The notes under the pieces are model-generated. The model saw only the letters and a list, made by a program, of their open reading frames with translations. It searched no databases and was not told the origin of the DNA. A stretch of DNA of 64,000 nucleotides from the NCBI RefSeq assembly GCF_002848345.1, contig NZ_CP025429.1, positions 5,074,982 through 5,138,981 on the forward strand. The letters run 5' to 3'. Position 1 is the first letter of the stretch; every line of letters starts with the position of its first letter. The DNA is from Chromobacterium sp. ATCC 53434 (GTDB lineage Bacteria > Pseudomonadota > Gammaproteobacteria > Burkholderiales > Chromobacteriaceae). Positions 24,128-41,152 of this stretch are shown piece after piece. The translations under genes were made by a program, and so were the position numbers.

Positions 24128-27004
24128 TCAGCGGGAAACCGTCATCGCTTCCTCGTTCACTATTCTCATGAAGTCGCGGCTGGGGGAGAGCAGGGTCCGG
24201 CCCTGCCGGCTGATCTCGTAATAGACCCGGAATATCGAGTAATGGTACAGCGTGTGCGCCGTCTTCAGCGCGAAGTTCGGTTCCAGCGCGGGGGTGGCGA
24301 AGCGCAACTGTCCTTCGCCGGAGCCGGTGTAGCTTTGTGCGGCGACGATGGGTTTTTGTCCTAGCAACGCCCAGTGCAACGTGACCTGATCGCCGGCCTG
24401 CAAATTGCCGACCTGGACGCCGTTCTTGAAGTCGCTCGGCTCGGGGAAACTGTCATTGGACACGGTGACGGGAAGTAGGCCCGGCGCCGGCATCCGGCCG
24501 ATGATGGGATAGCTTTCCGTCCGGGAATGCTTGTCGCCTATCGTGTAGGACAGCCGCAGCAGCTTGCCGGAATACGGGCCGATATGGACATAGGGAATAT
24601 CGACCGGAAAGGCGTAGGGCGGGACGTCGGGGCTGTGTTCCCGACGGAATGCGGCACGGTACTGGTGCAGGACCTGCCGGGTTTGCGGATCGACGATTTC
24701 CAGCAGCAGCTCGCCTGTCGTCGGCGGTCCTCCCGGGCTGCCGTTATCCGCTACCCTGACGGGAATCAGTCCATTGGGATTGATGTAGTTGCCGACATCG
24801 ACGGCGAAGCGGCCGACGAAGTCGCTGGGATTCACATAGGCGGACGGCAGGCTCTTGCCCTCCGGGCACAGCACCAGAGGCCGACTGGCCGTTTTCCTGT
24901 CGCCCCGGCTATAGCTGATCAGAATCTTGTTGCCGGGACCGACGATGCCCGGCAGCGGCATCGGATTCCAGCTGACCCTGCCGTGCGCCAGCGCCGGCCA
25001 GCCTACCATGCCGGCCGGGCCGCCGAGCTGGCCGTCGACGTTGCTCCAGCTGAGCTCGAAGCGCAGGTCCTTGCCGTCGTCGCCGTCTTTCAACGGCAAG
25101 CTGACCAGCCAGTGCGGATCGGCTTGGTCCAGATCCAGCCGGTAATCGCAGCCGATTTGCTGACCGGGCGTCGCGCCGCTGATTTCCGGCGGCGGCAAGT
25201 CGCGCGCCAGCTGGTAGTTGCAGCTTTCATTGTAGGCGTGCCAGATCTTGTCCAGCTGTTCAGGCGCGTAATGCAGAGCCGTCGCCGCGGTCAGGACCGC
25301 CTGGGCCGCCTGGTTCTGCTGAGCCTGCCGTCCCAGCATGGCCAGGCCCAGCAGCATGGCTTTGTCCATCGCCGCTCCGCCTATCGCGTCGCGCGCCACC
25401 ATATTGCACGAGCTCCAGTACTGGCCGGCAAGATGGGGATCGAAGCCGCGGACGGGGGCGATAGCGTCGCGCTTCACATCGCCCGGATAGCGGCGGCCGA
25501 CATTCCAGTCTATGGCGCGCTGAAAGCCTGCTTGCTTGGCGGCGCTCCAGAAAAACAGGCGATGGTATTCGGGATCGCCGGACCGCCAGTGGCCGTGGTC
25601 GCGCACATAGCCGGCGGCGAAGTAATCGCCTACGCCTTCGTTCAGGCCCTCCTGATCCGAGGCATTGCCGTGGGACGCCCAGTCAAACAGGCCGTGGCCC
25701 AGCTCATGGATGATGAATAGACCGTCTTCGCCGAAATCCGGCAGGTCTGGAAGGTTGCTGATGGCGTCGTGGGCGGTGCCGCCGCCGAATTTGATCCTGC
25801 CATCGGTTCCGCCAAGATAGGCGGCGTTGGCCGAGGTGTGGATCTTGCCGTCCTTGGGACTGATGTCGCGCCAGCCGTGCGGGTCGTACTGGACGCCGCC
25901 GGCGTACTGGTAGGGGCGGATGGCCAGGCCCAGCGTCTGATTGATGTAGCGCATCATTCTGTCGATGTGGAAATAGACATTGACGGCCTCGAAGGCGGGA
26001 TTGTCGCGGGTGTATTCGAACACCGGCGCGGCCTCGTGCGGGCAGCTGTCGTAATCGGTGATCGCGACGCAGTGCGCCCAGGGGCCGACCAGCTGGTATT
26101 TGCCGTTGATGTCCTTGCCCAGTCCGGGCAGCGGCACCTGGACGCGGGCGGCCTTCAACTGCGGCGAGTCCTGGTCGTGGTTGTTGACGTAGCCGGGGGC
26201 GCCGTAATGGGACCGCGTCGATGACAGCGGGTCCGGGTCGAAGACATAGCCGCGTCCGGTGGCCTGATCGTCGGCGCGGACGGCCGGCGTCTGGGCGGGA
26301 GCGGCGTGGCCGGTGCCGCCGGTGCCTATGGCGTCGTTTTCCATTTTCTGCGCGCGCAGCACCTTGCCGTCGCGCTGATCGACCAGCAGCTGCCACCAGC
26401 GGCCGTCGTCGGCGCGGCCCTCCACCTGCCATGCCCGCGACGGGGCTTGCCCGGCCGGGACGTACACCGTCTCCTCGAAGCGCGGCGACAGCAGTTGCGC
26501 GGTCTGCAGATGGCGCCGGGCCGCCGTCAGCGCCTGGGCCTGGCTAAGTTGCGGCTGGGCGATGCGCCAGAGGGGCTGATGCTCGGGCAGCGGCGAGGTC
26601 TGGTTGCTGACGTAGACGACATTGCCGTCGTCGGTCATCGACACGGCGATGTCGGAGCCGAAGACCGGCAGGCCGGCATAGCGCTGCTGCAGGCGGACGA
26701 CGGTGACGGCGGCCAGCCGATTGACGGCGGTGACTTGCAGCAGCTGCGCCTGGGCGGCGGACAGGCCCAGGGCGGCAAGGTGGTGCTCGACGTATTCGCG
26801 GGCCATCGCCTCGGGCGTGGCTTTGGCGGCGCGGTAGGCCGGCGCGTGCAGCTGGGTGGCGACGCCGTCGGGCCGATACCAGCCGTCGGCGCGCTGGCGC
26901 TGCGTCGGTGGCGCCTCGCGCAGCGATTTGTCGGAAACGGATGGCGCGGCGGCGCAGGCGATAGCCGGCGCCAGTAGGATCGAAGCGAGGAATTTTTTCA
27001 TCAT
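24128..27004 (-). CDS. secreted gluzincin metallopeptidase with propeptide (thermolysin/fungalysin-like)
   Basis: A 958-residue exported protein. It has a signal peptide (MMKKFLASILLAPAIACAA), a propeptide with FTP/PepSY-like character (about residues 60-225), and a catalytic region with the zinc motif HELGH at 433-437 and the third ligand Glu456 in NEGVGDYFAAGY. About 400 residues of C-terminal beta-rich domains follow, including FxVDVGNYINPNG and GQKPIV units. It is likely to be secreted and autoprocessed. AGGAG precedes the start at 27004. It is the downstream member of a tandem pair. Confidence 0.85.
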   Translation of the reverse strand: MMKKFLASILLAPAIACAAAPSVSDKSLREAPPTQRQRADGWYRPDGVATQLHAPAYRAAKATPEAMAREYVEHHLAALGLSAAQAQLLQVTAVNRLAAVTVVRLQQRYAGLPVFGSDIAVSMTDDGNVVYVSNQTSPLPEHQPLWRIAQPQLSQAQALTAARRHLQTAQLLSPRFEETVYVPAGQAPSRAWQVEGRADDGRWWQLLVDQRDGKVLRAQKMENDAIGTGGTGHAAPAQTPAVRADDQATGRGYVFDPDPLSSTRSHYGAPGYVNNHDQDSPQLKAARVQVPLPGLGKDINGKYQLVGPWAHCVAITDYDSCPHEAAPVFEYTRDNPAFEAVNVYFHIDRMMRYINQTLGLAIRPYQYAGGVQYDPHGWRDISPKDGKIHTSANAAYLGGTDGRIKFGGGTAHDAISNLPDLPDFGEDGLFIIHELGHGLFDWASHGNASDQEGLNEGVGDYFAAGYVRDHGHWRSGDPEYHRLFFWSAAKQAGFQRAIDWNVGRRYPGDVKRDAIAPVRGFDPHLAGQYWSSCNMVARDAIGGAAMDKAMLLGLAMLGRQAQQNQAAQAVLTAATALHYAPEQLDKIWHAYNESCNYQLARDLPPPEISGATPGQQIGCDYRLDLDQADPHWLVSLPLKDGDDGKDLRFELSWSNVDGQLGGPAGMVGWPALAHGRVSWNPMPLPGIVGPGNKILISYSRGDRKTASRPLVLCPEGKSLPSAYVNPSDFVGRFAVDVGNYINPNGLIPVRVADNGSPGGPPTTGELLLEIVDPQTRQVLHQYRAAFRREHSPDVPPYAFPVDIPYVHIGPYSGKLLRLSYTIGDKHSRTESYPIIGRMPAPGLLPVTVSNDSFPEPSDFKNGVQVGNLQAGDQVTLHWALLGQKPIVAAQSYTGSGEGQLRFATPALEPNFALKTAHTLYHYSIFRVYYEISRQGRTLLSPSRDFMRIVNEEAMTVSR

Positions 27005-27110
27005 TCAAGCTCCTGGGCAAGAGCCTGCACTGTGGTGCGATTGGCATCGCGCGACGGGCAGGCAGTCCGGAATTAGGCGGAATCCGATTCGCGGCGGCCG
27101 TGGCTGGGCA

Positions 27111-29339
27111 TCATGGCGATTGCCGCGATGTCGTCACCGGCACCCTGTCGATCAATACCATCAGGTCCTGGCTGGGTGACAGCAAGGTCCGGCCCTGCCG
27201 GCGGATCTCGTAATAGGTCCGGAGCCTCGAATAGGCGTAGACGGCGCGGTCCCATCGCGTGACGTGGTTTTTCGTCAGCGACGGCGCGGCGAATCGCAAT
27301 TGCCCGCCGGCGGGACCGGAGTAGGTCTGCGTCATCACGATCGGTTTTTGCCCGACGATTTCCCAGTGCAGGGCCACCTCGTCGCCGGGCTGCAAGCGAT
27401 CGATCTTCGCGCCGGCGCTGATCTCCCCGGCGTCGGGATGGTCGATGTTGGCGAACGTCGGCGGCGGCAGGTCCGGCGACGCCATCCGCCCGATGATCGG
27501 ATAGGTCGCCACCGGCGAGCGCGCCTCGCCGATGCGATAGGAGAGCTGCAGCAGCTTGCCCGAGTAAGGGCCGATATCGGCATAGGGGATGTCGATGCGG
27601 AAGACCGGCACCGTCAGGCCGGGCACCTTGCGATCCTGGCGGAAGTTCGCATGATATTGGTGCATGGTCTGGCGGCTTTGCGGATCGACGATCGCCAGTT
27701 GCAGTTCGCCGGCGGCCGACGGCTCGCCGGGCAGGCGATTGTCCTCCAGCTGGACGCGCAGCGTCCCGCTGGCATTGATGTAGTTGCCGACATCGACAGC
27801 CAGGCGTCCGACGAAGGGGCTGGCCGCGAAGTAGGCGGCCGGCAGCGAATGCGTCTTGCCTTCCAGGCACAGGGCGAGCGGCTGGCTGCGCACCCGCCCG
27901 TCGTCCCGGGTATAGCTCAGGATGAGCTTGCGCCCGGCGCCGGCGATTTTCGCCAACGGCGTCAGGTCCCAGCTGGCCTTGCCGGGAGACAGCTGCGGCC
28001 AGGCCATTTCGATGGCCGGGCCGCCTAGCCGCAGGCGGGACAGCGGGGTCCAGTCCAGTTCAAGGCGCAGGTCCTGGCCGGCGTCGCTGTCTTGCAGCGG
28101 CACGCTGGCCGTCCACTGCGGGTCGGCGGCGTCCAGGTCCAGCAGATAGTCGCAGCCCGTTTGCCGGCCGGGCGCCGCGCCGCCGATCTTGGCCGGCGGC
28201 GGCCATCCGGCGACGCCGTAGCTGCAGCTCTCGGTATAGGCGCGCCGGATCCCGTCCAGCTGCGCCGCCGTGTAATGCAGCGCCTCGGCCGCTTTCAGCA
28301 CCGCCTGCGCCGCCTGGTCCTGCCGGGTGTGCCTGCCCGTCATCGCCAGGCCCACCAGCATCGCCCTGTCCATTGCCGGACCACCTATCGCGTCGCGCGC
28401 GACCATATTGCACGAGCTCCAGTACTGGCCGGCGATATGGGCCTCGTTGCCGGCGTTGACGACGTCGGCCGGATAATGGCGGCCGATATGCCAGTTGCTG
28501 GCGCGTTTTTCGCCGGCCCACACCGCGACTTGATGGTATTCGGGATCGCCGGGCCGCCAGCGGCCGTGGTCGCGCGCGTAGCCGGCGGCGAAATAATCGC
28601 CTACGCCTTCGCCCAGTCCCTCGTATTCGTAATCGGCCGGAGCGCCATGCGTCACCCAGTCGTGCAGGCCGTGGCCCAGCTCGTGAATGACCACCAGGCC
28701 GTCCTCGGCGAAGTCCGGCGAGTCCGGCTCGTCGCTGACGGCGCCGTGCGCGCTGCCGCCGCCGAACTGGATTCGACCGTCCTCCCGGGCATATCTCGCA
28801 TTGGCTTCGGTGCGGGTCTTGCCGTCTTTCGGATCGACGACGCGCAGGCCGTGCGGGTCGTAGCGGACGCCGCCGGCGTACTGGAAGGGATGGATGGCCA
28901 GGCCCAGCGTCTGGTTGACGTAGCGCATCATCCTGTCGATGTGGAAATAGGCGTTGACGGCCTCGAAGGCCGGATTGTCGCGGGTGTATTCGAACACCGG
29001 GGCCGTCTCGTGCGGGCAGCTGTCGTAATCGGTGATCGCGACGCAGTGCGCCCACGGACCGACCAGCTGGTATTTGCCGTTGATGTCCTTGCCCAGTCCG
29101 GGCAGCGGCACCTGGACGCGGGCGGCCTTCAACTGCGGGGAGTCCTGGTCGTGGTTGTTGACGTAGCCGGGGTCGCCGTAATGGGCGCGCGTCGACGACA
29201 GCGGGTCCGGATCGAAGACATAGCCGCGGCCGGTGGCCTGGTCTTCGGCGCGCTGGTGTTGAACCAGAGGCTCGGCAATGGCGGCGGGCGGCGACAAGGC
29301 AAGCAGGCAGGCTGCGGCGAGCAGGGTTTTTATTGCCAT
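27111..29339 (-). CDS. secreted gluzincin metallopeptidase paralogue lacking the propeptide
   Basis: A 742-residue paralogue of the downstream enzyme. It has its own signal peptide (IKTLLAAACLLALSPPAAIA) but enters the conserved DQATGRGYVFDPDP segment by residue 32, so the roughly 210-residue propeptide is missing. The zinc motif HELGH is at 219-223 and the third ligand is in GEGVGDYFAAGY. The C-terminal domains align throughout. The N-terminal catalytic part is nearly identical in DNA sequence to its neighbour. Activity without the propeptide chaperone is uncertain. Confidence 0.83.
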   Translation of the reverse strand: MAIKTLLAAACLLALSPPAAIAEPLVQHQRAEDQATGRGYVFDPDPLSSTRAHYGDPGYVNNHDQDSPQLKAARVQVPLPGLGKDINGKYQLVGPWAHCVAITDYDSCPHETAPVFEYTRDNPAFEAVNAYFHIDRMMRYVNQTLGLAIHPFQYAGGVRYDPHGLRVVDPKDGKTRTEANARYAREDGRIQFGGGSAHGAVSDEPDSPDFAEDGLVVIHELGHGLHDWVTHGAPADYEYEGLGEGVGDYFAAGYARDHGRWRPGDPEYHQVAVWAGEKRASNWHIGRHYPADVVNAGNEAHIAGQYWSSCNMVARDAIGGPAMDRAMLVGLAMTGRHTRQDQAAQAVLKAAEALHYTAAQLDGIRRAYTESCSYGVAGWPPPAKIGGAAPGRQTGCDYLLDLDAADPQWTASVPLQDSDAGQDLRLELDWTPLSRLRLGGPAIEMAWPQLSPGKASWDLTPLAKIAGAGRKLILSYTRDDGRVRSQPLALCLEGKTHSLPAAYFAASPFVGRLAVDVGNYINASGTLRVQLEDNRLPGEPSAAGELQLAIVDPQSRQTMHQYHANFRQDRKVPGLTVPVFRIDIPYADIGPYSGKLLQLSYRIGEARSPVATYPIIGRMASPDLPPPTFANIDHPDAGEISAGAKIDRLQPGDEVALHWEIVGQKPIVMTQTYSGPAGGQLRFAAPSLTKNHVTRWDRAVYAYSRLRTYYEIRRQGRTLLSPSQDLMVLIDRVPVTTSRQSP

Positions 29340-30215: not shown

Positions 30216-30749
30216 TCAGTGAATTTTATGGAGTGCTCTTGCTAAATTCGTAATTTCATAACCATTTTTCGCAGGAATTGCATCTAATCCATAACTCTCA
30301 TCTGTGTGGATGAATTTTCCTGATATTTTATATATGGTGTAGATATTACTAGAGTCCCATTTTTTATCTGTCTTGAAAATAACCATCATACTATCCTGAC
30401 TGTTATAGAGCATGATGGGTGGTATTTTTTCAGCAAAATCAATTCTTCCCATTCTGTTTAGTGCAAATCCCTTCATGTAATTTGATGTGAATTCCCCTAG
30501 CAGGATGGCAGCCTTCGATTTTATCCCCGCACAGACGGCTTTCACGTTGCTGCCTCTTGATTCGTCTTCAGTACCAAAAGCTGGCCTCGGAATGCTATTC
30601 CCGGACTGAATAAAATACACGTATGTATCTGCGATCTTATTATTGCGCGTAATGGTTACTGTCTCAGTGGGAGTCAATTTGCAAGTGGTAACGATTTCCG
30701 CTTGTGCAGTGAAAGGAAGCAGGAGGATTGCAAGAATAATCTTTTTCAT
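30216..30749 (-). CDS. periplasmic protein, candidate immunity protein for the transglycosylase
   Basis: A 177-residue protein with a clear signal peptide (KKIILAILLLPFTAQA) and two cysteines in the mature part. Base composition is AT-rich, unlike the chromosome. I do not recognise the family. Its start overlaps the stop of the transglycosylase-like gene by 4 bases (ATGA), the coupling typical of effector-immunity pairs, and a periplasmic location is what immunity to a wall-degrading enzyme requires. The immunity role is inference. Confidence 0.6.
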   Translation of the reverse strand: MKKIILAILLLPFTAQAEIVTTCKLTPTETVTITRNNKIADTYVYFIQSGNSIPRPAFGTEDESRGSNVKAVCAGIKSKAAILLGEFTSNYMKGFALNRMGRIDFAEKIPPIMLYNSQDSMMVIFKTDKKWDSSNIYTIYKISGKFIHTDESYGLDAIPAKNGYEITNLARALHKIH

Positions 30750-31327
30750 TTCACGCCGTCTCGTAATACTTGCATAGAGTCAGGATTGCCTTTTAGGTTA
30801 TCTGCCATTGATTTAATCTTTTTGTAGTATATGCCGTTTCTTACGCCTCGGTAATCCTTGTATGCTTCAGCAATAGGGTCTGCGGCACCTTTTCTTTTCT
30901 CATTGTCAATCAGGAGTTGTAGGTATTTCGTCCCTGTTTGAATATTTATTGCCTCGTCAATAAGGGATGGGCCGTTATGGAATGCATCTGCCTTTTGGAA
31001 AACTTGCGCATCTGGTAATCGTTCAGATTTTGGCTTTTTCATATTTTCAAGCCGATACATTTCACGGATTGGAGCTTTTAATAGCTGCATCAATCCTTTT
31101 GCTGAACTACCTGCTGCGTGAGGATTTGAGTCAAATCTAGACTCCATATAGATGTGGCAAATAATAACATCAGTTGGCATGGACGATTGATTGTTCTCCT
31201 CCACAAGTTTTCTAATCTCCTTCAGCCTGGCTGAGTCATCTACCTGAACCTTTTCAGGAGAAGTTTCAGATTTTGGTGTGAGCTTTCCATTGTGGCTATG
31301 AATTTTCTTCTTATTTGCAACAGCCAT
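30746..31327 (-). CDS. lytic transglycosylase-like protein, candidate type VI effector
   Basis: A 193-residue protein with no signal peptide. Its SLT-type lysozyme fold is seen in VIICHIYMESRFDSNPHA (catalytic Glu62), SSAKGLMQLL (78-82) and TGTKYLQLLID. The N-terminal 45 residues are charged and probably flexible. A cytosolic peptidoglycan lyase directly downstream of a PAAR gene and coupled to a periplasmic protein fits a type VI effector cassette. It starts two bases after the PAAR stop. Confidence 0.72.
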   Translation of the reverse strand: MAVANKKKIHSHNGKLTPKSETSPEKVQVDDSARLKEIRKLVEENNQSSMPTDVIICHIYMESRFDSNPHAAGSSAKGLMQLLKAPIREMYRLENMKKPKSERLPDAQVFQKADAFHNGPSLIDEAINIQTGTKYLQLLIDNEKRKGAADPIAEAYKDYRGVRNGIYYKKIKSMADNLKGNPDSMQVLRDGVK

Positions 31328-31329
31328 TG

Positions 31330-31881
31330 TTATTGATCCCAGGATGGATTGATCGGGGTTGGCTCAGGCTCGTATACGTGAAGCGTCGCAGTGTCAGCAG
31401 TATCGGAGGACACTTTCATTGTTTTTCCTTCTTTATCGGTCTTTCCGTTGATCTTCTGCCCGTTGGGAAGCTCTATTGTGTAAGGCCAGTCAGCAAGGGG
31501 TTTTCCATCCATGCCATGGATGATGAAATGCTGATCGAACAGTCTGGGGACTGTGCTGGCTGTGCTCAGGGCAGAGGCGGCTATCGATGTCGGAGACGTG
31601 CCTGCCGCACCAGATGCGACATCTATTGTGGCCTGTCCTTGGGATGCAATGAGAGTGGCCCCACATGAAGTTTTCATGCCTTCTACGGCAACATTCTTGC
31701 CCATGAAAATGGTGCTTGAAGTGCCTTCGACAATGACGAATGTCCCTTTGCATTTAGGACAACTAACTTTATGGCCAATACCTGCAGCGTTCTTACCATA
31801 GACACTAAGCGTAGGGAACGCCTCCAGAACCGTGCCCCCGTGAGAGGTTGAATCTCCCTCACGGATGATGGCCTTACCCAT
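31330..31881 (-). CDS. PAAR-domain protein (type VI spike tip) with C-terminal extension
   Basis: A 183-residue protein. The PAAR domain spans about residues 1-95: REGDSTSHGGTVL, a Cys pair in VSCPKCKGTF, DGK-like MGKNVAVEGMKTSCGATLI. A linker and a small beta domain (FDQHFIIHGMDGKPLADWPYTIEL) of the type often fused to VgrG or PAAR proteins follow. The ATG at 31881 is preferred because GAGG is 9 bases upstream; an ATG at 31890 is also open. It overlaps the upstream gene by 8 bases. Confidence 0.82.
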   Translation of the reverse strand: MGKAIIREGDSTSHGGTVLEAFPTLSVYGKNAAGIGHKVSCPKCKGTFVIVEGTSSTIFMGKNVAVEGMKTSCGATLIASQGQATIDVASGAAGTSPTSIAASALSTASTVPRLFDQHFIIHGMDGKPLADWPYTIELPNGQKINGKTDKEGKTMKVSSDTADTATLHVYEPEPTPINPSWDQ

Positions 31882-32557
31882 GTTGTCCATCCTCGTACAG
31901 CTTTGGCATATAAGCAGGGTCGAGCAGCCCTTCAATTGGCGGTTCGTCCGCAAACTGGGTGATGGTGGAATCGTTATGGATGGGGCCAATGATTCGATCT
32001 CCGTTGTCCAGTTCACTGCCCACGATAGCCATAGGTCGGTCCCATACGAGGCCGGCGACACCTGCGCCGCTAATGATCTTGGCTTCGGTCCCATCAGAGT
32101 AGCGCACGATGTCGCCAACCATGGCAATGCGTTCTTCCCGCAGATATATCGGAGATGAAGCAATTACCTTGCCGCCACGCACGGTGATGGAAGCATCGGT
32201 GGCCACGGGGTAGACCGCCTTGATGGGCCTTGCTGCTACTTTGGCCATAAACTCGGTGACCAAGCGTTGCCCTTCGTTGACTGTGTTTTGCATAAACTTC
32301 CCTTCCGATTGTGTTGAATGCTTCGCCAACGTCGCGGCGATATCGACAAGTGAATCCAACGAGAAGCGCCCTGTATTGCCACGCCATAAATCGCTGATGC
32401 GGGGCTGTGTTAGCCCACATAAATGCGCTGCTTCGCTTTGCGTCCAATCATTGGACGCAAGCAACGACCTGATCTTCTCTAGGACCATCATGCGGATGCT
32501 GTGACTTGGGAGCTCTTCGAGCTTAATAGCATTTTTACCGATGTCATTTTTTGCCAT
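31874..32557 (-). CDS. XRE-family regulator fused to a PAAR-adjacent domain
   Basis: A 227-residue protein. Residues 20-85 are an XRE/HigA-type helix-turn-helix (WTQSEAAHLCGLTQPRISDLWRG). From residue 89 it is a separate domain (MQNTVNEGQRLVTEFMAKVAARP..) of the kind encoded as a stand-alone protein beside PAAR genes. Met89 is itself preceded by GGAAGGGAAG, so the second domain may also be made alone. No HigB/RelE toxin is present upstream. The protein may regulate the cargo operon and also help load the PAAR spike; both roles are inferred. Confidence 0.7.
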   Translation of the reverse strand: MAKNDIGKNAIKLEELPSHSIRMMVLEKIRSLLASNDWTQSEAAHLCGLTQPRISDLWRGNTGRFSLDSLVDIAATLAKHSTQSEGKFMQNTVNEGQRLVTEFMAKVAARPIKAVYPVATDASITVRGGKVIASSPIYLREERIAMVGDIVRYSDGTEAKIISGAGVAGLVWDRPMAIVGSELDNGDRIIGPIHNDSTITQFADEPPIEGLLDPAYMPKLYEDGQHG

Positions 32558-32584: not shown

Positions 32585-32702
32585 GCGGGAAGGATCTGGT
32601 ATCCAGACTGTTCATTGCTGAGGTGCGTCTCGTTTTATTTTAAATAGAACATTGACTGACTTTAAAGCGTTCTTCTTTTTCTTACGTATGTAGCAAAAAC
32701 CA

Positions 32703-32945
32703 CTGCCAACGCTGCCAACACTGCCAACTCGTCTGTAAGTGTCTGATTGGTATGGGTTTAGTTGTTGGCAGTGGCGGCTAAAGCACTGCCAACAGGAGGG
32801 GGCAAACTGCCAACTGGGCGGGATGGGGTGGATTCACTGCCAATTGACTGCCAACACTGCCAACACTGCCAACTCACTGCCAACAGATAAAGCTATATAA
32901 ATCAGTCTATTGGAGAGGTGTTGGCAGAGTTGGCAGTGTTGGCAG
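32703..32945. repeat. iteron-like array, candidate replication origin of the satellite
   Basis: Fourteen copies of the octamer CTGCCAAC (one with a final T) occur in 243 bases. Ten are on the plus strand (starts 32703, 32712, 32721, 32786, 32807, 32837, 32848, 32857, 32866, 32877) and four inverted (32764, 32920, 32929, 32938). Many are spaced 9 bases apart. An AT-rich segment (32885-32915) lies between the last forward group and the inverted group. The array abuts the 3' end of the helicase gene, as crr does in P4. Confidence 0.7.
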
Positions 32946-32976
32946 TGGGTTTGGCCTCACGTGAGAAATTTTTCGC

Positions 32977-34731
32977 TTACTCTTCCGCTTCGCCGTCGTG
33001 CGGATGCAACTGCATGCGGTAGACCTGGCCCACGCCTTTGCCGCCATGCACGGTCCAACCGGCGCGACCCTTTGGCCGTTGCAGCATCCCCGCCCGGTAC
33101 AGCACTTCGCAGGCATGCCGCACTTCATAGCCGGCGATGACTTCGCCCTTGAACGCGCCCGGCGTCACCAGAAACACCGCTTCGCCTTCCAGCGTGTAGC
33201 GCTTGTAGCCCATCAGATTGGGAACCAGCGGGTCGCTGTCATTCATCGGCAGCAACACGAAGCGGGCGTACTGGCTGGCCTGCAGCACGGCGGCGGCCTG
33301 GTCGATCAAGCGGGCGTCGTCGCGGTCTTCGATGCCGAAAGCCTGCATCCAGCGCTGCCAGGTGGTTTCCACGCCTTGAATCGCCTGTTCCAGCGTCCAC
33401 CCGGTCAGGCCGGCATGGCTGGCCATCTCGGCCGCCGCCGACAGGATGGCGAATTTGCGCGTCGCGCGTCTGACCGTGGGTGCGGCGCCCTCGGGCACGG
33501 CCGCCAGCATGCGCTGTTGCGACCGCTCCACCCACTGCACCGCCGCCGCCCGGTTGTCCTGCAGCCAAGCGACGAAGGCGCGGCCGACGGTGCCGTAATG
33601 GCTGCGTGCATGCCGGGTCAGCTCGTCGGCAAACACTTCGCCATTGCTGCGGCCGTGGATGTGGTCGAAGGCGCGATAGGGGCCGGTGTCGGCCGGAATG
33701 TCGAGCAAGCGGATTTCCTGGCCGCCGCGCGGGGTCTGGCCGCCTTCGGTCAGGTACTGGCTCATTGCCACTTCGCCGGTAGAAATCATGGTCAGCTTCC
33801 ACGAACGGGCGGCGCGGTTGCCGCCTTCCTTCGCGCCTTGCAGTTTGGACACGCCGTTGAGCATGCTGTAGATGGCCGGGCCGATCTTGCGGGCGTCGCC
33901 GGAACCGACTTCATCCAGATAGATCATCATGTCATTGCTGGCTTCGGCCTCGTTGCTCAGGCCCAAAGAGGTGCCGGACCACGTGTGCAAGGTGCGCTGC
34001 GGGTCGCCCCACACGCTGGCGGCGGTATCGGCGCAGGTGCTCTTGCCGGACGAGGAATTGGTGTACAGGTGCAGGCCGATGCCATCCCGCGCCCCGCACA
34101 AGGCCAGCAGCGGGCCGGCCAGCGCGCAAGCGATGGTGGTCATCGCCAGCGGGTTGCCCAGCGCCAGCGCGCCGACCGTGCTTTGCCAGTCGGCCAGGCT
34201 GCCGGCCGGATGGTAGGCGCTGGCGTCCTTGGGGCGGCCGTTGAAATGCATCTTGCGGTTGGGGGTGCCGATGATGTCGCCGTTGGGCAGCACGAACGCG
34301 CCATGCTGCCAGCCGGACATGTTGACGATGTCGTGCCACTCGGTGGAGCCTTCGCGCTGCAACCAGTGGGCCAGCCGCGCCTGGCCGCCGCGGTCGGTGG
34401 TCAGCGTCAGGCCGCCCTTGCGCAGCAGCGCCCAGCCGGCGCGCTCGCCGATGTCGGCGCTGGGCAAGGCGCTGGTCATCACCTCGCCATTGCCCTGGCG
34501 CTGCCATTTGACGATGCGGTGATGGTTGCCGTCGGCATCCATGCCGCAGCCCAACAGCTCCATCTTGTCGCTCAGCCATTCCGGTGGCTGCTCCAACAGC
34601 TCGCCGGTATCGCGGTCGCGTTTGACGGCGATGTAATGCACGCCGTCGCGGTTCACTTCATAACGCGGGCCGGCGGCATACACCGGGGCGGCGGCCGCCA
34701 TCTTCAATACTGTCTTGTCAGCGCTGCCCAT
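32977..34731 (-). CDS. DUF927-domain helicase-like ATPase
   Basis: A 584-residue protein with a DUF927 domain. Walker A is seen in LYTNSSSGKST and an acidic Walker B in MMIYLDEVGSG. The N-terminal part has a small beta domain and the C-terminal part is helical. DUF927 proteins act as replicative helicases of phages and islands. The ATG at 34731 is chosen because AAGGAG lies 6 bases upstream; it overlaps the primase gene by 14 bases. Together the two genes correspond to the single alpha protein of phage P4. Confidence 0.82.
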   Translation of the reverse strand: MGSADKTVLKMAAAAPVYAAGPRYEVNRDGVHYIAVKRDRDTGELLEQPPEWLSDKMELLGCGMDADGNHHRIVKWQRQGNGEVMTSALPSADIGERAGWALLRKGGLTLTTDRGGQARLAHWLQREGSTEWHDIVNMSGWQHGAFVLPNGDIIGTPNRKMHFNGRPKDASAYHPAGSLADWQSTVGALALGNPLAMTTIACALAGPLLALCGARDGIGLHLYTNSSSGKSTCADTAASVWGDPQRTLHTWSGTSLGLSNEAEASNDMMIYLDEVGSGDARKIGPAIYSMLNGVSKLQGAKEGGNRAARSWKLTMISTGEVAMSQYLTEGGQTPRGGQEIRLLDIPADTGPYRAFDHIHGRSNGEVFADELTRHARSHYGTVGRAFVAWLQDNRAAAVQWVERSQQRMLAAVPEGAAPTVRRATRKFAILSAAAEMASHAGLTGWTLEQAIQGVETTWQRWMQAFGIEDRDDARLIDQAAAVLQASQYARFVLLPMNDSDPLVPNLMGYKRYTLEGEAVFLVTPGAFKGEVIAGYEVRHACEVLYRAGMLQRPKGRAGWTVHGGKGVGQVYRMQLHPHDGEAEE

Positions 34732-35737
34732 CGGCTTCTCCTTGTTCATTCAGTACATCCAGCCAATCGCTGTCCCGTCGCTCGGGAATCAGCAGATGGA
34801 CGGCTTTGTCGTCGGCCTGCATCTGGCGGACCAGCCGCCGGGCGGCGTTCTGGCCGGCCTGGTTGGCGTCGTTGTCGGCCATCACAAACAGCGCGCTCAC
34901 TTCATCCGGCAACACCGCATGCGACAGCCCCCAGGCCGACAGCGCCGCCCAGCACGGCAGGCCGCTGCCCTCGCGCACCGCCAGCGCGGTCTCGATACCT
35001 TCGGCCAGCGCCAGGCGGCCGTCTTCAGGCGGATACAGCCGGATCGCCGCGCCGGACAGGTCGCCGGAACGGCCCAGGGCCAGTTTCTTCACCGGCAGCG
35101 GCTCGCCGCTCACCGGGTGGACCAGCGCGGCCTTGTGGCCGTCAAAGGTCAGCCAGGTGCGATGCAAGCCCACATTGATGCCCTGCGGCGATGTCACCAG
35201 CGCCAGCATCGCCGGGAAGTGGCCCAGCAGCTGCGGCCGGCCGTGCAAGGTGATCCAGTAGGCCAAGGCCGGGTGATAGCGCAGCGCGCGGGGGTAAGTC
35301 GTCAGGCTCAAGCCTCGGCGCGTCAGATAGCGGCCCACCGGGTTATCGGCCGTCACCGGCCGGGCGGTGCGCCACAGCTGGGCCAGGCGTCCGCGCTGGT
35401 CGCGTTGCGGGTGCGGCGTAGGTGCGGCAGCCACCCGCGCCGGCTCCCCCTTCGCCCCGTCCAACACCCTGGCCACCGCCTGCGCCGCATGGAAGAAGTC
35501 GCCGCCTAGCCAATGCTGGGCCAGCACGAAGCCGTCGCCGCCCAGGCTGTCCAGCGCGCGGCAGACGAAGCGGCCGCTGCCCTTGTCGATCCATTCGAAA
35601 CGGTCGCTGCCGCCGCAGGCCGGGCAAGGCTGATTGCGGCGCTGGGTAAAGACCTCGGCCGGAATGCCCAAGGCCATCAGGATGTCCGGCCAGCGGTCGC
35701 GGGCCTGCTGGCGCAATTGTGCGAGATTGAGCCTCAT
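34718..35737 (-). CDS. P4-type primase with zinc ribbon and Toprim domain
   Basis: A 339-residue protein. The N-terminal zinc ribbon is seen as CPACGGSDRFEW (Cys38, Cys41) and FVCRALDSLGGDGF; the expected fourth Cys is missing. The Toprim domain has LALAEGIETALA (acidic Glu) and FVMADNDANQAG (DxD). It makes RNA primers for the satellite's own replication. The ATG at 35737 follows GGGAGG and overlaps the stop of a 27-codon frame as ATGA. Confidence 0.85.
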   Translation of the reverse strand: MRLNLAQLRQQARDRWPDILMALGIPAEVFTQRRNQPCPACGGSDRFEWIDKGSGRFVCRALDSLGGDGFVLAQHWLGGDFFHAAQAVARVLDGAKGEPARVAAAPTPHPQRDQRGRLAQLWRTARPVTADNPVGRYLTRRGLSLTTYPRALRYHPALAYWITLHGRPQLLGHFPAMLALVTSPQGINVGLHRTWLTFDGHKAALVHPVSGEPLPVKKLALGRSGDLSGAAIRLYPPEDGRLALAEGIETALAVREGSGLPCWAALSAWGLSHAVLPDEVSALFVMADNDANQAGQNAARRLVRQMQADDKAVHLLIPERRDSDWLDVLNEQGEADGQR

Positions 35738-35817
35738 GGTTGGGCCTCCCACTGGATGACGCCAGACAAGCCGAGGGCGTCTCGCCCGGTGCGCGGGAGA
35801 GGGTTTCTTGCGTTCAT
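35734..35817 (-). CDS. 27-residue ORF coupled to the primase gene
   Basis: This frame encodes 27 residues (starts NARNPLPRTGRDALGLSG). It has an excellent ribosome binding site (AAGGAG, 6 bases before ATG) and its stop overlaps the primase start as ATGA. It is probably translated, either as a small protein or as a leader that sets primase translation. Confidence 0.55.
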   Translation of the reverse strand: MNARNPLPRTGRDALGLSGVIQWEAQP

Positions 35818-35827
35818 GGGTGGCTCC

Positions 35828-36154
35828 TTAGAGCAGTTGGCCGATGTCGGCGCTGGCGTCGATGACTTGCTGCTGCAGCGGGGCGAGCAGCCCGGCCAGG
35901 CGCTGCGCCGGCAACGGTTGACCCTCGGCGCAATCCAGCAGCTCGACCAGTCCTTGCAGGCCGTCGCCGGTACGCGCCAGGCGCGACACGCCGGCGCTGA
36001 CGGTGTGTTCGATGCCACGGCACAAGCTGGCCAGCTGGCTCAAGGGTTCGCGCAGGGCGGCATGTTCGGGCGAGTTGGCCAGCAATTGCAGCTGGGCCAA
36101 TTGGTGATGAACGGCGGACAGCGCCAACGGGGCAATCAGCGGCAGGGCGTTCAT
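35828..36154 (-). CDS. small helical protein of the satellite early operon
   Basis: A 108-residue, Leu/Ala-rich helical protein, not recognised. It has GGAGG 7 bases before ATG and overlaps the upstream 58-residue gene by 4 bases (ATGA). Its position before the primase corresponds to the small kil/eta genes of P4, but no sequence match is claimed. Confidence 0.65.
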   Translation of the reverse strand: MNALPLIAPLALSAVHHQLAQLQLLANSPEHAALREPLSQLASLCRGIEHTVSAGVSRLARTGDGLQGLVELLDCAEGQPLPAQRLAGLLAPLQQQVIDASADIGQLL

Positions 36155-36327
36155 GCGATCACCTCCACGGCGAAGCCAGCGGGAGTGCGATGGAACACGG
36201 CGCGTTGACCCTGAGCCACCAGCAAAGCGGCGAGCGCGCGCGCTTCGGCCTCGTTGGGCAATGTGGAAATCGGGCGGGTAGTGTGCGGAAATAGGGCGCG
36301 GAGAGCGCGCAAGGTGATGCCAGGCAT
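36151..36327 (-). CDS. 58-residue protein, first gene of the satellite replication operon
   Basis: A small protein starting PGITLRALRALFPHTTRPISTLPNEAEARALAALLVAQGQRAVFHRTPAG. It has a near-perfect ribosome binding site (AAGGAGG, 5 bases before ATG), so translation is likely. A role like P4 Kil is possible by position only. It is downstream of the antisense-RNA region. Confidence 0.65.
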   Translation of the reverse strand: MPGITLRALRALFPHTTRPISTLPNEAEARALAALLVAQGQRAVFHRTPAGFAVEVIA

Positions 36328-36342
36328 GGTGACCTCCTTCGT

Positions 36343-36355
36343 AAGCGTTACGCTT
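36343..36355. promoter_or_regulatory. 13-base palindrome before the replication operon
   Basis: AAGCGT-T-ACGCTT is perfectly symmetrical around one base and lies just upstream of the ribosome binding site of the 58-residue gene. It could be a protein operator or an RNA hairpin. Confidence 0.45.
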
Positions 36356-36363
36356 GCCATCCC

Positions 36364-36373
36364 GAGACCAATC
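36364..36373 (-). promoter_or_regulatory. seqC-like antisense target in the operon leader
   Basis: On the minus strand this reads GATTGGTCTC, the same 10 bases as the upstream copy at 36533-36542. Both are complementary to the seqB-like stretch at 36395-36404. It lies about 37 bases before the first operon start codon, so pairing here could affect translation or termination. Confidence 0.65.
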
Positions 36374-36384
36374 GGGGGTGGCAG

Positions 36385-36490
36385 GCACATGGCAGGATTG
36401 GTCTACCGGTACGAAGGAACCGGCGCGTGCAAGCACGCTCCCACCAAGGCCCGCCATAGAAAGAGACGCACCAATGGTGTGAAACGGACG
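36385..36490 (-). ncRNA. candidate CI/C4-type antisense immunity RNA
   Basis: Approximate ends. The minus-strand sequence contains a GCGTGC/GCACGC hairpin (36424-36437), a CCGGT/ACCGG hairpin (36405-36422) and then the single-stranded AGACCAATCC (36404-36395). This last piece is complementary to copies upstream and downstream of it. The seqA-RNA(seqB)-seqC order is that of phage P4 CI RNA and P1 C4 RNA, which silence the replication operon of an incoming or resident element. The transcript itself is inferred. Confidence 0.62.
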
Positions 36491-36491
36491 T

Positions 36492-36513
36492 AAAAAATGC
36501 CGCAATAGGCGGC
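36492..36513 (-). terminator. early terminator in the satellite operon leader
   Basis: On the minus strand GCCGC pairs with GCGGC around CTATT, followed after one base by six T residues. An overlapping competing stem (AGGCGG/CCGCCT) precedes it. In P4, CI RNA pairing with seqA favours early transcription termination; the seqA copy lies just upstream of this hairpin. Confidence 0.65.
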
Positions 36514-36532
36514 TATCCGCCTTCGTAATCAG

Positions 36533-36543
36533 GAGACCAATCC
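36533..36543 (-). promoter_or_regulatory. seqA-like antisense target
   Basis: The minus strand reads GGATTGGTCTC. Ten of these bases (GGATTGGTCT) are exactly complementary to AGACCAATCC in the candidate antisense RNA. It lies about 25-30 bases into the predicted leader transcript and upstream of the early terminator. Confidence 0.65.
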
Positions 36544-36571
36544 CGGTCGCGCTATTGAACACGACGGGGTA

Positions 36572-36600
36572 ATGGTGCGGGAATCGGGCGGGGCTGTCAA
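36572..36600 (-). promoter_or_regulatory. leftward promoter of the satellite replication operon
   Basis: A perfect -35 TTGACA (36600-36595) is followed after 17 bases by the weaker -10 CACCAT. A start near 36565 would give a leader containing seqA, the early terminator, the antisense RNA and seqC before the first gene. Confidence 0.6.
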
Positions 36601-37156: not shown

Positions 37157-37435
37157 TTACTTCAGCACGGTATGGCGGATGCGCCCCTGGCCAGTGGTCA
37201 GCGCCAGGGCGGGCGCATTGGCCAGCCCCGGCAACTGGCGCAGCTGCTCCAGCGGAATCGCCATCCCGCCCTTGATCGGCTGCGCCAAGGTGCGCGGGTC
37301 GCCCTCCAGGGTCTTGTACTGGTGGCAGCAGTCGTCGTTGCTGCAGTTGTAGTAAATCTCCTTGCTGGTGGCGCTCATCATCCGGCTGGTGCGGACCCGC
37401 GACATAGCGCCGCACAGGGGGCAGGGGAAAGCCAT
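37157..37435 (-). CDS. Ogr/Delta-family late-gene activator
   Basis: A 92-residue protein. The N-terminal zinc finger has FPCPLCG (Cys5, Cys8), RVRTSRMMSATSKEIYYNC and Cys31-x4-Cys36, the exact Ogr/Delta pattern. In P4, Delta turns on helper phage late genes and P4 late genes. The C-terminal 50 residues are an extension. It lies 10 bases downstream of a truncated gene, in the same direction. Confidence 0.8.
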   Translation of the reverse strand: MAFPCPLCGAMSRVRTSRMMSATSKEIYYNCSNDDCCHQYKTLEGDPRTLAQPIKGGMAIPLEQLRQLPGLANAPALALTTGQGRIRHTVLK

Positions 37436-37445
37436 CTCGCGTCCT

Positions 37446-37774
37446 TTAGCAATCGGTGTGTTGGGGAATGTCGCTCAGCGTGCGCTTGCGGTGGCTGAAG
37501 CCCGGCTGGTCGCGCTCGGCGTTGCCGCAGCCCTCGCAGACTTTGCCGGTGTTGCGCTCCACCCGCACCGCCTTGTCGTCCCAAAGCTCGATCATGTCGC
37601 GGTCTTTGAGGTGGGTGACTTCCAGGCCGGCCAGGCCGTTGCGGCTCAGCCAATCCTTGACCTTGCCGATCTGGTTCGGGTCGGCGGCGCGGGCGGTAAA
37701 AATCCGCACCTCGTAATCCCCCTCATTCAGCCAGGCTTTGACCCGGTTCATCATCGCTTCCACCGGCCGGCCTA
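37446..37774 (-). pseudogene. HAD-like phage hydrolase, N-terminus lost at the IS630 junction
   Basis: About 109 codons remain, from GRPVEAMMNRVKAWLNEGDYEVRIFTAR through MIELWDDKAVRVERNTGKVCEGCGN. This is the C-terminal half of a HAD-superfamily protein common in phages; the expected N-terminal DFDGT motif is missing. The frame runs straight into the IS630 end at 37775. It is probably inactive. Confidence 0.7.
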
Positions 37775-38896
37775 TTAATCCGGCAGTCAAATACCGTACA
37801 GAAAGCTCATGCCGCGTAGCGGATTTTTTCATGCCGGAAGTACGACCGGATTCTGGCCGGCTGCTTCTGCAATGAGCGTAAATGGGACAGCACTTTCCCT
37901 TGAAGTTGACCGTCTGATCGAACCGGCTCACCTGCGCTCATTCTGGCCTTCAGGTCGCCGTTCAAGTATTCATCCGGGTTCAGTTCCGGTGAGTAGCTGG
38001 GCAGGAAGAACAACTCAATCGCCTTCTTGTTCTCTTCCTCCTCCAACCATGCTTGCACCAGCTTGCTGTGATGCACGCGCAAGTTGTCGAGGATCAAGAA
38101 CACCTTCTTGCCGCCAGCATCACGGATCAGCCGCATCAGAAACTTGATCAGCACCCGGGCCGTCAAGGTCTCCCGGTACAGCATGAAGCGCATCTTGCCT
38201 TGGTTGGTAATGGCCGAAATCAAGTTGATGCGCGCTCTTTTCGATTGGGATAACACCAGAACTGGGGTTTGGCCTTTTGGGGCGTAGCCACGCGGAAAGT
38301 GCTCAACACTCGACACCGCCGATTCGTCGCCCCAGCTGATTTCAGCCATTTCCGCTTTGGCACGCGCGACGATAGCCGGGTATTCCTCCTTGAGCCATTT
38401 CTCGACTGCTGCCGGTCGCTGCTCATAAGCGCGTTTGAGCGGGCGCTGCGGCGTAAAGCCCCAGCGGGCCAAGTACAGACGGACAGTACGGATCGGCAGA
38501 TCGATCAGAAACATCTGCTTGATTACAGCCTTGACCGCCTGAGCACTCCACAGGGCAAACCTCAGCTTCATCTGGTCTGGCGTGCGATCCACGATGTCCT
38601 GCTTGATCCGGGCTTCCTGCGCCTCGGTCAGCCGACGGCCGGTGCCTTCGGCGCGACCGCGCTTCTGTTCTTTGAATCCCTGCGCACCTAGTGCTGCCTC
38701 ACGCACCACCCAGGCGGAAATGGTGGGGCGGCGCAGCCCGAGTTCTTCGGCAATACTGGCTTGAGACCGGCCTCGCTTGTACATCCGGATAGCGGTACGC
38801 CTCAGCTGCTCACGGGCGGCCAGTTCAAGCTTGCGCACATCGATTTTTTCCATGCCGGAAGTATACAATCTGTACGGATTATTACTGCCGGATTAA
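37775..38896 (-). mobile_element. IS630-family insertion sequence
   Basis: A 1,122-bp element. The ends are inverted repeats beginning TTAATCCGGCAG and continuing imperfectly for about 27 bases (TACCGTACAGA on one side, ATCCGTACAGA on the other). TA lies on both outer sides (37773-37774 and 38897-38898), the target duplication of the family. Confidence 0.88.
37807..38853 (-). CDS. IS630-family transposase
   Basis: A 348-residue transposase with an N-terminal helix-turn-helix (GRSQASIAEELGLRRPTISAWVVR) and a DDE catalytic domain: EISWGDESAV (first Asp), VFLILDNLRVHHS (second Asp) and PSYSPELNPDEYLNGDLK (final acidic residue). The ATG at 38853 is preferred to a TTG at 38868. It appears intact, so the element may still be active. 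Confidence 0.9.
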   Translation of the reverse strand: MEKIDVRKLELAAREQLRRTAIRMYKRGRSQASIAEELGLRRPTISAWVVREAALGAQGFKEQKRGRAEGTGRRLTEAQEARIKQDIVDRTPDQMKLRFALWSAQAVKAVIKQMFLIDLPIRTVRLYLARWGFTPQRPLKRAYEQRPAAVEKWLKEEYPAIVARAKAEMAEISWGDESAVSSVEHFPRGYAPKGQTPVLVLSQSKRARINLISAITNQGKMRFMLYRETLTARVLIKFLMRLIRDAGGKKVFLILDNLRVHHSKLVQAWLEEEENKKAIELFFLPSYSPELNPDEYLNGDLKARMSAGEPVRSDGQLQGKVLSHLRSLQKQPARIRSYFRHEKIRYAA

Positions 38897-38898
38897 TA

Positions 38899-39326
38899 GT
38901 TTCCAATACTACGCCACAAATGACGGCAGCTGGCATCCGATATCCTGCAGCAAGAAGCTCGCGGGCCTGTTCAAGTTCGGTTGAGAAAACCTCAGCTTGA
39001 ACAAGGTGGCGGATTGACGAAAGGTATCCACCTTCAAAGTCTTCTTTGGCTGCAAGGAAAATGGCTCGAAGACGGCTTAGTATTGTCGGATTTTCCTCGT
39101 AGGGACGCGGTTTCTCAGCATTTAAGAATGCGTTGAAATGCTCTGAGTCACGGCCGCATGCACTTACTAGAAGGTTGCGTACTTTTATGCGCCAGCCCAA
39201 AAATAGATCGGAATCAACATGGTCATAGTAGCCCATGATAGGACTATGTTTTTTCTGTTTTGTTGCAGCGACGGTGTCGGCTTGGGAAAGTAATTCTTCA
39301 AAGCGTTTTTTTAAATGTTTAGTCAC
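38899..39326 (-). pseudogene. unrecognised island gene, C-terminus lost at the IS630 junction
   Basis: About 142 codons remain (TKHLKKRFEELLSQADTVAATKQ .. AGYRMPAAVICGVVLE). The end has the form seen in HEPN/DUF4145-like proteins, where a C-terminal helix would follow. The frame passes into the IS and would end there. Composition is AT-rich. The missing part is not found beyond the IS. Confidence 0.6.
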
Positions 39327-41067: not shown

Positions 41068-41152
41068 TGGTGCCCAGAGTCGGACTCGAACCGACACGCC
41101 TTGCGGCGGGGGATTTTGAATCCCCTGCGTCTACCAATTTCGCCATCCGGGC
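41068..41152 (-). tRNA. tRNA-Leu, anticodon CAA
   Basis: An 85-base gene that folds as a class II tRNA. The acceptor GCCCGG pairs with the CTGGGC end before encoded ACCA. The anticodon stem is GGGGA/TCCCC with loop TTCAAAA (anticodon CAA, codon UUG). The variable arm is long and the T-arm has GGTTCGAGTCC. Confidence 0.95.

Follow-up and report, generated by a model that had tools for sequence, protein, structure and literature searches.

A C4-type antisense RNA in the predicted immunity region of a P4-like satellite integrated in Chromobacterium

The 64,000-nucleotide stretch of Chromobacterium sp. ATCC 53434 DNA analysed here (the window) contains, upstream of a replication operon on its minus strand, an antisense RNA of C4 type that very probably forms the core of an integrated P4-like satellite's immunity region. 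Homology to C4, the pairing blocks, their covariation and the gene order were all read directly by sequence analysis, and the Chromobacterium segment is a clear, fresh example of the known C4-type antisense switch. The features of the region, following the minus strand, are:

36572..36600, minus strand: predicted leader promoter, TTGACA-17-CACCAT, from sequence
36493..36565, minus strand: leader RNA with two hairpins, the a1/b1 targets and the early terminator; isrK-like (RF01394)
36534..36543, minus strand: a1 (seqA-like), GGATTGGTCT, within the second leader hairpin (sequence, fold, alignment)
36520..36527, minus strand: b1, TACGAAGG, immediately before the terminator region (sequence, alignment)
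36492..36513, minus strand: early intrinsic terminator, GCCGC-CTATT-GCGGC and T-run (terminator scan)
36374..36461, minus strand: C4 antisense RNA (P4 CI-like), RF01695 match, fold z −4.16
36410..36419, minus strand: b' loop of the C4 RNA, TTCCTTCGTA, predicted to pair with b1 and b2 (covariation)
36395..36404, minus strand: a' block (seqB-like), AGACCAATCC, predicted to pair with a1 and a2 (covariation)
36364..36373, minus strand: a2 (seqC-like), GATTGGTCTC (sequence, alignment)
36333..36343, minus strand: b2, TACGAAGGAGG, the Shine-Dalgarno region of ORF1 (sequence, alignment)
36151..36327, minus strand: ORF1, 58 aa, start at 36327

The Rfam scan placed a C4 antisense RNA (RF01695) at 36374-36461 on the minus strand with 65.8 bits against a cut-off of 45 (E 1.5e-10), the match covers the complete model (positions 1-87 of 87) and is one of two above-cut-off Rfam matches in the whole window, the other being a tRNA. 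Folded alone, the C4 segment reaches −43.3 kcal/mol, compared with −30.6 (sd 3.1) in shuffles, and none of 200 shuffles equalled it (z −4.16). A preliminary description of this DNA had read the region as being of the P4 CI / P1 C4 type and had proposed a search with the Rfam C4 model, folding, and a comparison of the blocks in relatives for compensating changes; the model was matched above its cut-off over its full length, the segment proved more stable than all 200 shuffles, and compensating changes are abundant at all blocks (see below), so that its observation is real and its interpretation supported. No DNA-level match of the region to phage records was found, and neither was a paper joining “C4 antisense” with “Chromobacterium”.

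Targets for the C4 RNA lie on both sides of it, a1/b1 upstream and a2/b2 downstream, and all four are present. The coordinates given in the preliminary description for GGATTGGTCT, AGACCAATCC, GATTGGTCTC and the early terminator are all correct on the minus strand, and its pairing scheme holds for block a (a1, a', a2) but missed a second block, b (b1, b', b2), of which b' TTCCTTCGTA occupies the loop of the second C4 hairpin. Block b2 (TACGAAGGAGG, 36343-36333) precedes the ATG of ORF1 at 36327 and covers the ribosome-binding site, and translation is therefore a predicted target besides termination. That such repeats arose by chance in a GC-rich leader is a negligible prospect: triples of 7-mers do occur in 26 of 1000 dinucleotide shuffles of the 321-nt region and 8-mer triples in 2, but none of the 1000 yielded two direct copies of a 9-mer flanking their complement, the Rfam match stands against it as well, and the shuffles, the permutations and the covariation between loci together rule out a chance or simple-repeat origin.

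C4 matches were found in all 19 genomes of the genus and in 48 of 61 in the family (own genome included), and the higher-scoring part among the matches listed, 48 loci, was used for pairing tests. Parsed in register, these loci carry 14 a' strings, 32 b' strings and 33 a/b pairs, and leaving out the 15 that repeat an a/b pair gives 33 non-redundant loci. Pairing runs scoring at least 6.9 are present in 31 of the 33 for a'-a1, 31 for a'-a2, 30 for b'-b1 and 31 for b'-b2; when partners were swapped between loci the counts were 268/1042 (a'-a1), 207/1042 (a'-a2), 45/1054 (b'-b1) and 62/1054 (b'-b2), and for each of the four duplexes none of 2000 permutations reached the observed mean cognate pairing. 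The loop-cutting rule of the first 48-locus test left some loci out of register; repeated with loops parsed in register, the test again gave 0/2000 per duplex.

All four duplexes (a'-a1, a'-a2, b'-b1, b'-b2) covary. Of the 28 loci whose leader has a T-run, 25 were aligned (all but L018, L032 and L034). In this alignment the structure a1:a' + b1:b' has 90.0% of cells paired with 76 cells changed on both sides, and a':a2 + b':b2 has 90.1% paired with 80 cells changed on both sides, counts that kinship among the aligned sequences inflates. Covariation scores are 0.448 vs. 0.136 in shuffles for the first structure and 0.500 vs. 0.146 for the second, falling to at most 0.113 and 0.133, respectively, when partners were slid, an excess which is partly built in because the structure was taken from the focal sequence. 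For both structures none of 500 shuffles matched the percentage paired, the double-changed cells or the covariation score. The pair-count and pair-type measures are less extreme, shuffles reaching them 71 and 16 times of 500 in the first structure and 3 and 48 times of 500 in the second, and in the a duplexes an A-U pair of the focal locus fails to form in 16 of the 25 loci for a1:a' and in 15 for a':a2.

The leader upstream of C4 is less distinctive. It resembles isrK (RF01394) with 40.4 bits (E 2.7e-7), under the gathering score of 50, and c4-a1b1 (RF03163) with 14.7 bits, under the cut-off of 46.7, and its fold is less striking than that of C4 (z −2.12, equalled by 8 of 200 shuffles). The TTGACA of the promoter proposed in the preliminary description lies at 36600-36595 and is followed after a 17-nt spacer by CACCAT at 36577-36572 (minus strand), but the second hexamer is weak and a plain promoter scan did not list it; in 46 of the 48 loci the best promoter-like match (at least 8/12) lies 127-161 nt upstream of C4, a count made without a shuffled control. 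The terminator stem occupies 36513-36499 and its T-run extends to 36492, and a T-run of at least four is present upstream of C4 in 28 of the 48 loci.

For processing, pairing in trans, termination and immunity we reason from P1, P7 and P4. A single promoter would give the leader transcript, from which the C4 RNA would be excised, by RNase P if it follows its class, as a stable small RNA. This RNA would work in trans, b' loop and a' strand jointly contacting a1-b1 in the leader and a2-b2 further downstream. On a1-b1 it would favour a stop at the early terminator, and on a2-b2 it would mask the Shine-Dalgarno region of ORF1 and the operon would be silenced by polarity; both pairings would thus keep the primase and helicase genes off in a cell where the element already resides, and would likewise silence a newcomer that shares its a/b specificity. 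The link between C4 binding and termination may run through a GGCGG/CCGCC hairpin, as the last two bases of b1 are the opening GG of the GGCGG arm: this hairpin would exclude the terminator hairpin, and C4 binding to a1-b1 would free the terminator. The leader folded alone contains the GGCGG/CCGCC hairpin (single minimum-energy fold, frequency 0.18), and in the fold of a longer transcript a1-b1 is paired with b'-a' and the terminator hairpin is formed (single minimum-energy fold, frequency 0.008). Since each of the two is a lone minimum-energy structure with a low frequency, we infer this switch, which is our own proposal, rather than read it from the folds, and it is the least certain step.

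Pairing of a1-b1 with b'-a' in cis, as in the minimum-energy fold of the whole leader, is also what a cis-acting attenuator would predict, in which the C4 part pairs with a1-b1 of its own transcript and a free small RNA is irrelevant. We consider this highly improbable: passages of PMC4825925 and PMC5320573 present the C4 and CI RNAs of P1, P7 and P4 as antisense RNAs that undergo processing, the compact C4 fold is strongly favoured when the segment is folded alone (z −4.16), and a2-b2 would be left without a clear role. A C4 RNA excised from the leader and acting in trans is the reading we retain.

The genes and other features that surround the switch are:

32693..32955, both orientations: iterons CACTGCCAA, directly behind the DUF927 gene, candidate replication origin
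32977..34749, minus strand: DUF927 protein, 590 aa (PF06048, 163 bits; phrog_1139 DNA primase), probable replicative helicase/primase
34718..35752, minus strand: primase, 344 aa, with Zn ribbon, DUF7146 and Toprim_3 (domain search)
35828..36154, minus strand: ORF2, DUF1484 (PF07363, 48.4 bits, cut-off 21.2), 108 aa
36666..37118, plus strand: another Ogr/Delta-like gene, with a weaker match, facing away from the leader (PF04606, 27.2 bits, cut-off 26.3)
37157..37435, minus strand: Ogr/Delta-like zinc-finger regulator (PF04606, 65.3 bits)
37807..38868: IS630-type transposase, between the integrase and the Ogr gene, with copies 100% identical elsewhere in the same genome
39639..41012, minus strand: integrase (Arm-DNA-bind_3, Phage_int_M, Phage_integrase; domain search)
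41068..41152, minus strand: tRNA-Leu(CAA), adjoining the integrase

ORF1, which presumably occupies the place of P1 icd or P4 kil, has no Pfam or NCBIfam match, and the first ORF behind C4 is related to it in 19 of the 48 loci (focal included). A short ORF lies between the DUF1484 and primase genes. The switch had been described as lying upstream of a primase/helicase operon, and a replication operon is indeed present, but it comprises a Toprim primase and a DUF927 protein and not a single P4 alpha. Its assignment to a satellite agrees with the integrase at a tRNA and the Ogr/Delta genes, but two bounding att sites were not found. The tRNA-Leu(CAA) is the probable attachment gene: among eight related stretches scanned for tRNAs, five show a related integrase adjoining tRNA-Leu(CAA) (L099, L102, L103, L105, L106), and the other three have tRNA-Leu(TAA) among others, tRNA-Arg, and none. 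In one of the five (L103), a 19-nt repeat of the sequence behind tRNA-Leu occurs at 17559, 12.8 kb apart and next to a second integrase, perhaps reflecting tandem islands at one tRNA.

In the focal window a second att site or att repeat was sought and not found, no match to the P2-type capsid gene (PF05125) was found in the own genome, and the island ORFs that were scanned include none of the Psu/Sid families. Given the missing second att, the IS630-type element inside the island and the missing P2-type capsid family, the island may no longer be mobile. These same three points would fit a relic, in which the C4 region still folds and controls no working satellite as the island has decayed. This is unlikely, as all six pairing blocks are intact and the frames of ORF1, DUF1484, primase and DUF927 are open and 83-97% identical to those of L105. 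The two sister islands (L105 and L106) keep the order C4-ORF1-DUF1484-primase-DUF927, with ca. 97% identity to the focal island in the DUF927 protein and ca. 91% in the primase, and four further related loci (L098, L099, L102, L103) keep ORF1-DUF1484 and have no match to the focal primase or DUF927 protein.

Around these genes some minor features were seen. The ORFs at 37446-37931 and 38802-39326, beside the IS630-type transposase, are partly IS sequence. Next to the island, 30216-32557 holds a PAAR-motif protein with an overlapping HTH frame and an SLT-domain protein just under the cut-off, and at 24128-29339 there are two long, similar tandem ORFs of 958 and 742 aa that, judged by eye, carry a zinc-peptidase-like motif, HELGHGL.

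The closest comparison is with the CI immunity region of P4 (seqA - CI - seqC). The same three models occur in a common order in both, and in the P4 genome C4 scores 74.9, isrK 60.8 (passing its cut-off) and c4-a1b1 44.1 bits (missing 46.7), whereas both isrK and c4-a1b1 are sub-cut-off in the focal region. Read by eye, P4 also has a and b blocks with b2 at the Shine-Dalgarno region (b' TCCTGTGAA, b1 TTCACAGGCGA, b2 TTCACAGGAGG), and in both elements an early terminator lies between the leader target and the CI RNA, with a second target and the replication operon behind. Both place the switch upstream of a primase gene, carry an integrase and a Delta-type gene, and have repeats behind the primase gene, the focal iterons standing in place of P4 crr. 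However, C4 begins 31 nt behind the leader match here and 107 nt behind it in P4, the single 777-aa alpha primase-helicase of P4 is replaced by a 344-aa primase and a 590-aa DUF927 protein, an extra DUF1484 gene is present, the a/b sequences are others, and the isrK and c4-a1b1 scores are lower.

In P1, C4 controls an antirepressor operon, whereas the focal C4 precedes a replication operon. Another C4 of the window's own genome (L003) lies before a protein similar to Bro-N, by BLAST to the corresponding protein of L022, which is the member of this group tested by Pfam. In its passages on P1 and P7, PMC5320573 describes two pairing regions of C4, a' and b', with b' partly covering ribosome-binding sites, and the focal RNA shares with them the Rfam C4 model and a' and b' loops complementary to their targets. 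The focal leader also resembles the model of isrK (IsrK / STnc1160 of Gifsy-1), but stays under its cut-off, and the short IsrK is reported to activate a long mRNA, an activation that is not predicted for the focal leader. To the P4/P1 class of C4 immunity the focal locus contributes a satellite from the beta-proteobacteria whose replication module is of the DUF927 type.

Sorted by BLAST, the first ORFs behind C4 in the 48 loci comprise 19 ORF1-like, 8 Bro-N-like, 7 VioS-like DUF1484 and 5 of the “HYW” family of L013, with 9 unsorted. First ORFs of several families indicate that P4-like and P1-like uses of C4 coexist, even within the window's genome (L001, the focal locus, and L003). The three C4 RNAs of this genome are all distinct in both a and b. 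In rough duplex energies the focal C4 pairs with its own a1b1 at −38.8 vs. −20.6 and −17.2 with the co-resident a1b1 targets, whilst for a2b2 it shows no preference (own −29.9, co-resident −27.4 and −30.1). Two sister loci (L025 and L028) have all b blocks identical to the focal locus and differ from it in block a, where one and the same two-base change is seen in a', a1 and a2 alike; with their common b and changed a they are a natural test case of specificity change, and the 33 distinct a/b pairs in 48 loci are a start for predicting mutual exclusion among satellites and prophages.

Four genomes of the genus contain 30-39 C4 matches each (35, 37, 39 and 30 in the genus search); G012 is one of them, and the others are G001, G004 and G005. 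In G012 (loci L050-L095), a single contig, 31 C4 matches were listed and 30 examined; 12 of the 31 pass the C4 cut-off and the rest score 28.5-44.8 bits. All 30 have different b' loops, and runs of at least 6.9 were found for a1 in 25 of the 30, b1 in 24, a2 in 7 and b2 in 9, with a loop-cutting rule that put the loop in the wrong place in at least L081 and L092; in each of the four pairings the observed mean lay beyond all of 2000 permutations. Passages of PMC5320573 report many C4-like “Group 1” sRNAs with variable a' in one Acinetobacter baumannii chromosome, a multicopy state like that of G012, whereas most G012 copies keep their own cis leader targets, on which those passages make no statement. 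A first ORF was called in 27 of the 30 (46-174 aa, by a simple rule, some perhaps in the wrong frame), and at least 13 of the 27 belong to one unnamed family with an HYW motif (like YPHYWQMP). Compared with 15 focal-island proteins, 18 stretches of 4-6 kb that surround 19 G012 matches gave no hit at 1e-4, and eight neighbouring proteins from seven loci, picked because they looked host-like, belong to ordinary host families. PF07363 finds three places in G012. The identification of small G012 genes as DUF1484 did not hold for the two tested, of which one scored 16.5 bits (cut-off 21.2) and the other had no match.

DUF1484 also occurs in VioS, a repressor of violacein synthesis of 138 aa with DUF1484 at 32-138, its own regulation being called open in the passages of PMC5339254 that describe it. 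G018 encodes, at 1.10 Mb, a 138-aa DUF1484 protein (residues 33-137) that is likely to be VioS; its DUF1484 match is strong (2.6e-54) and that given for VioS in the same passages of PMC5339254 is weak (8.35e-03), values that come from different tools. Proteins ca. 90% identical to it are encoded behind a C4 switch in L008, L023 (= L118), L024 (= L117) and L026, and no C4 lies directly upstream of the VioS-like gene in G018, C. subtsugae, C. sinusclupearum and C. sphagni. C4 control of all VioS-like genes was thus rejected, since of eight at ≥89% identity four follow C4 and four (L112, L119, L120, L122) do not. The VioS-like DUF1484 gene is possibly identical with the known violacein repressor, and its position behind C4 in some species and without it in others suggests that this quorum-sensing regulator may be a captured satellite gene.

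It is a real possibility, though one we lean slightly against, that in some Chromobacterium genomes the C4 switch has escaped from mobile elements and now spreads as a regulatory cassette of its own; its odds are lowered because the small G012 genes called DUF1484-like miss the Pfam cut-off. If true, dozens of mutually distinct antisense circuits would be held in one chromosome, and the multicopy genomes raise the testable question of why ca. 30 distinct antisense switches are kept per chromosome. Across the order, 35 of 250 genomes have any C4 match; G157, which belongs to a different family, has 16.
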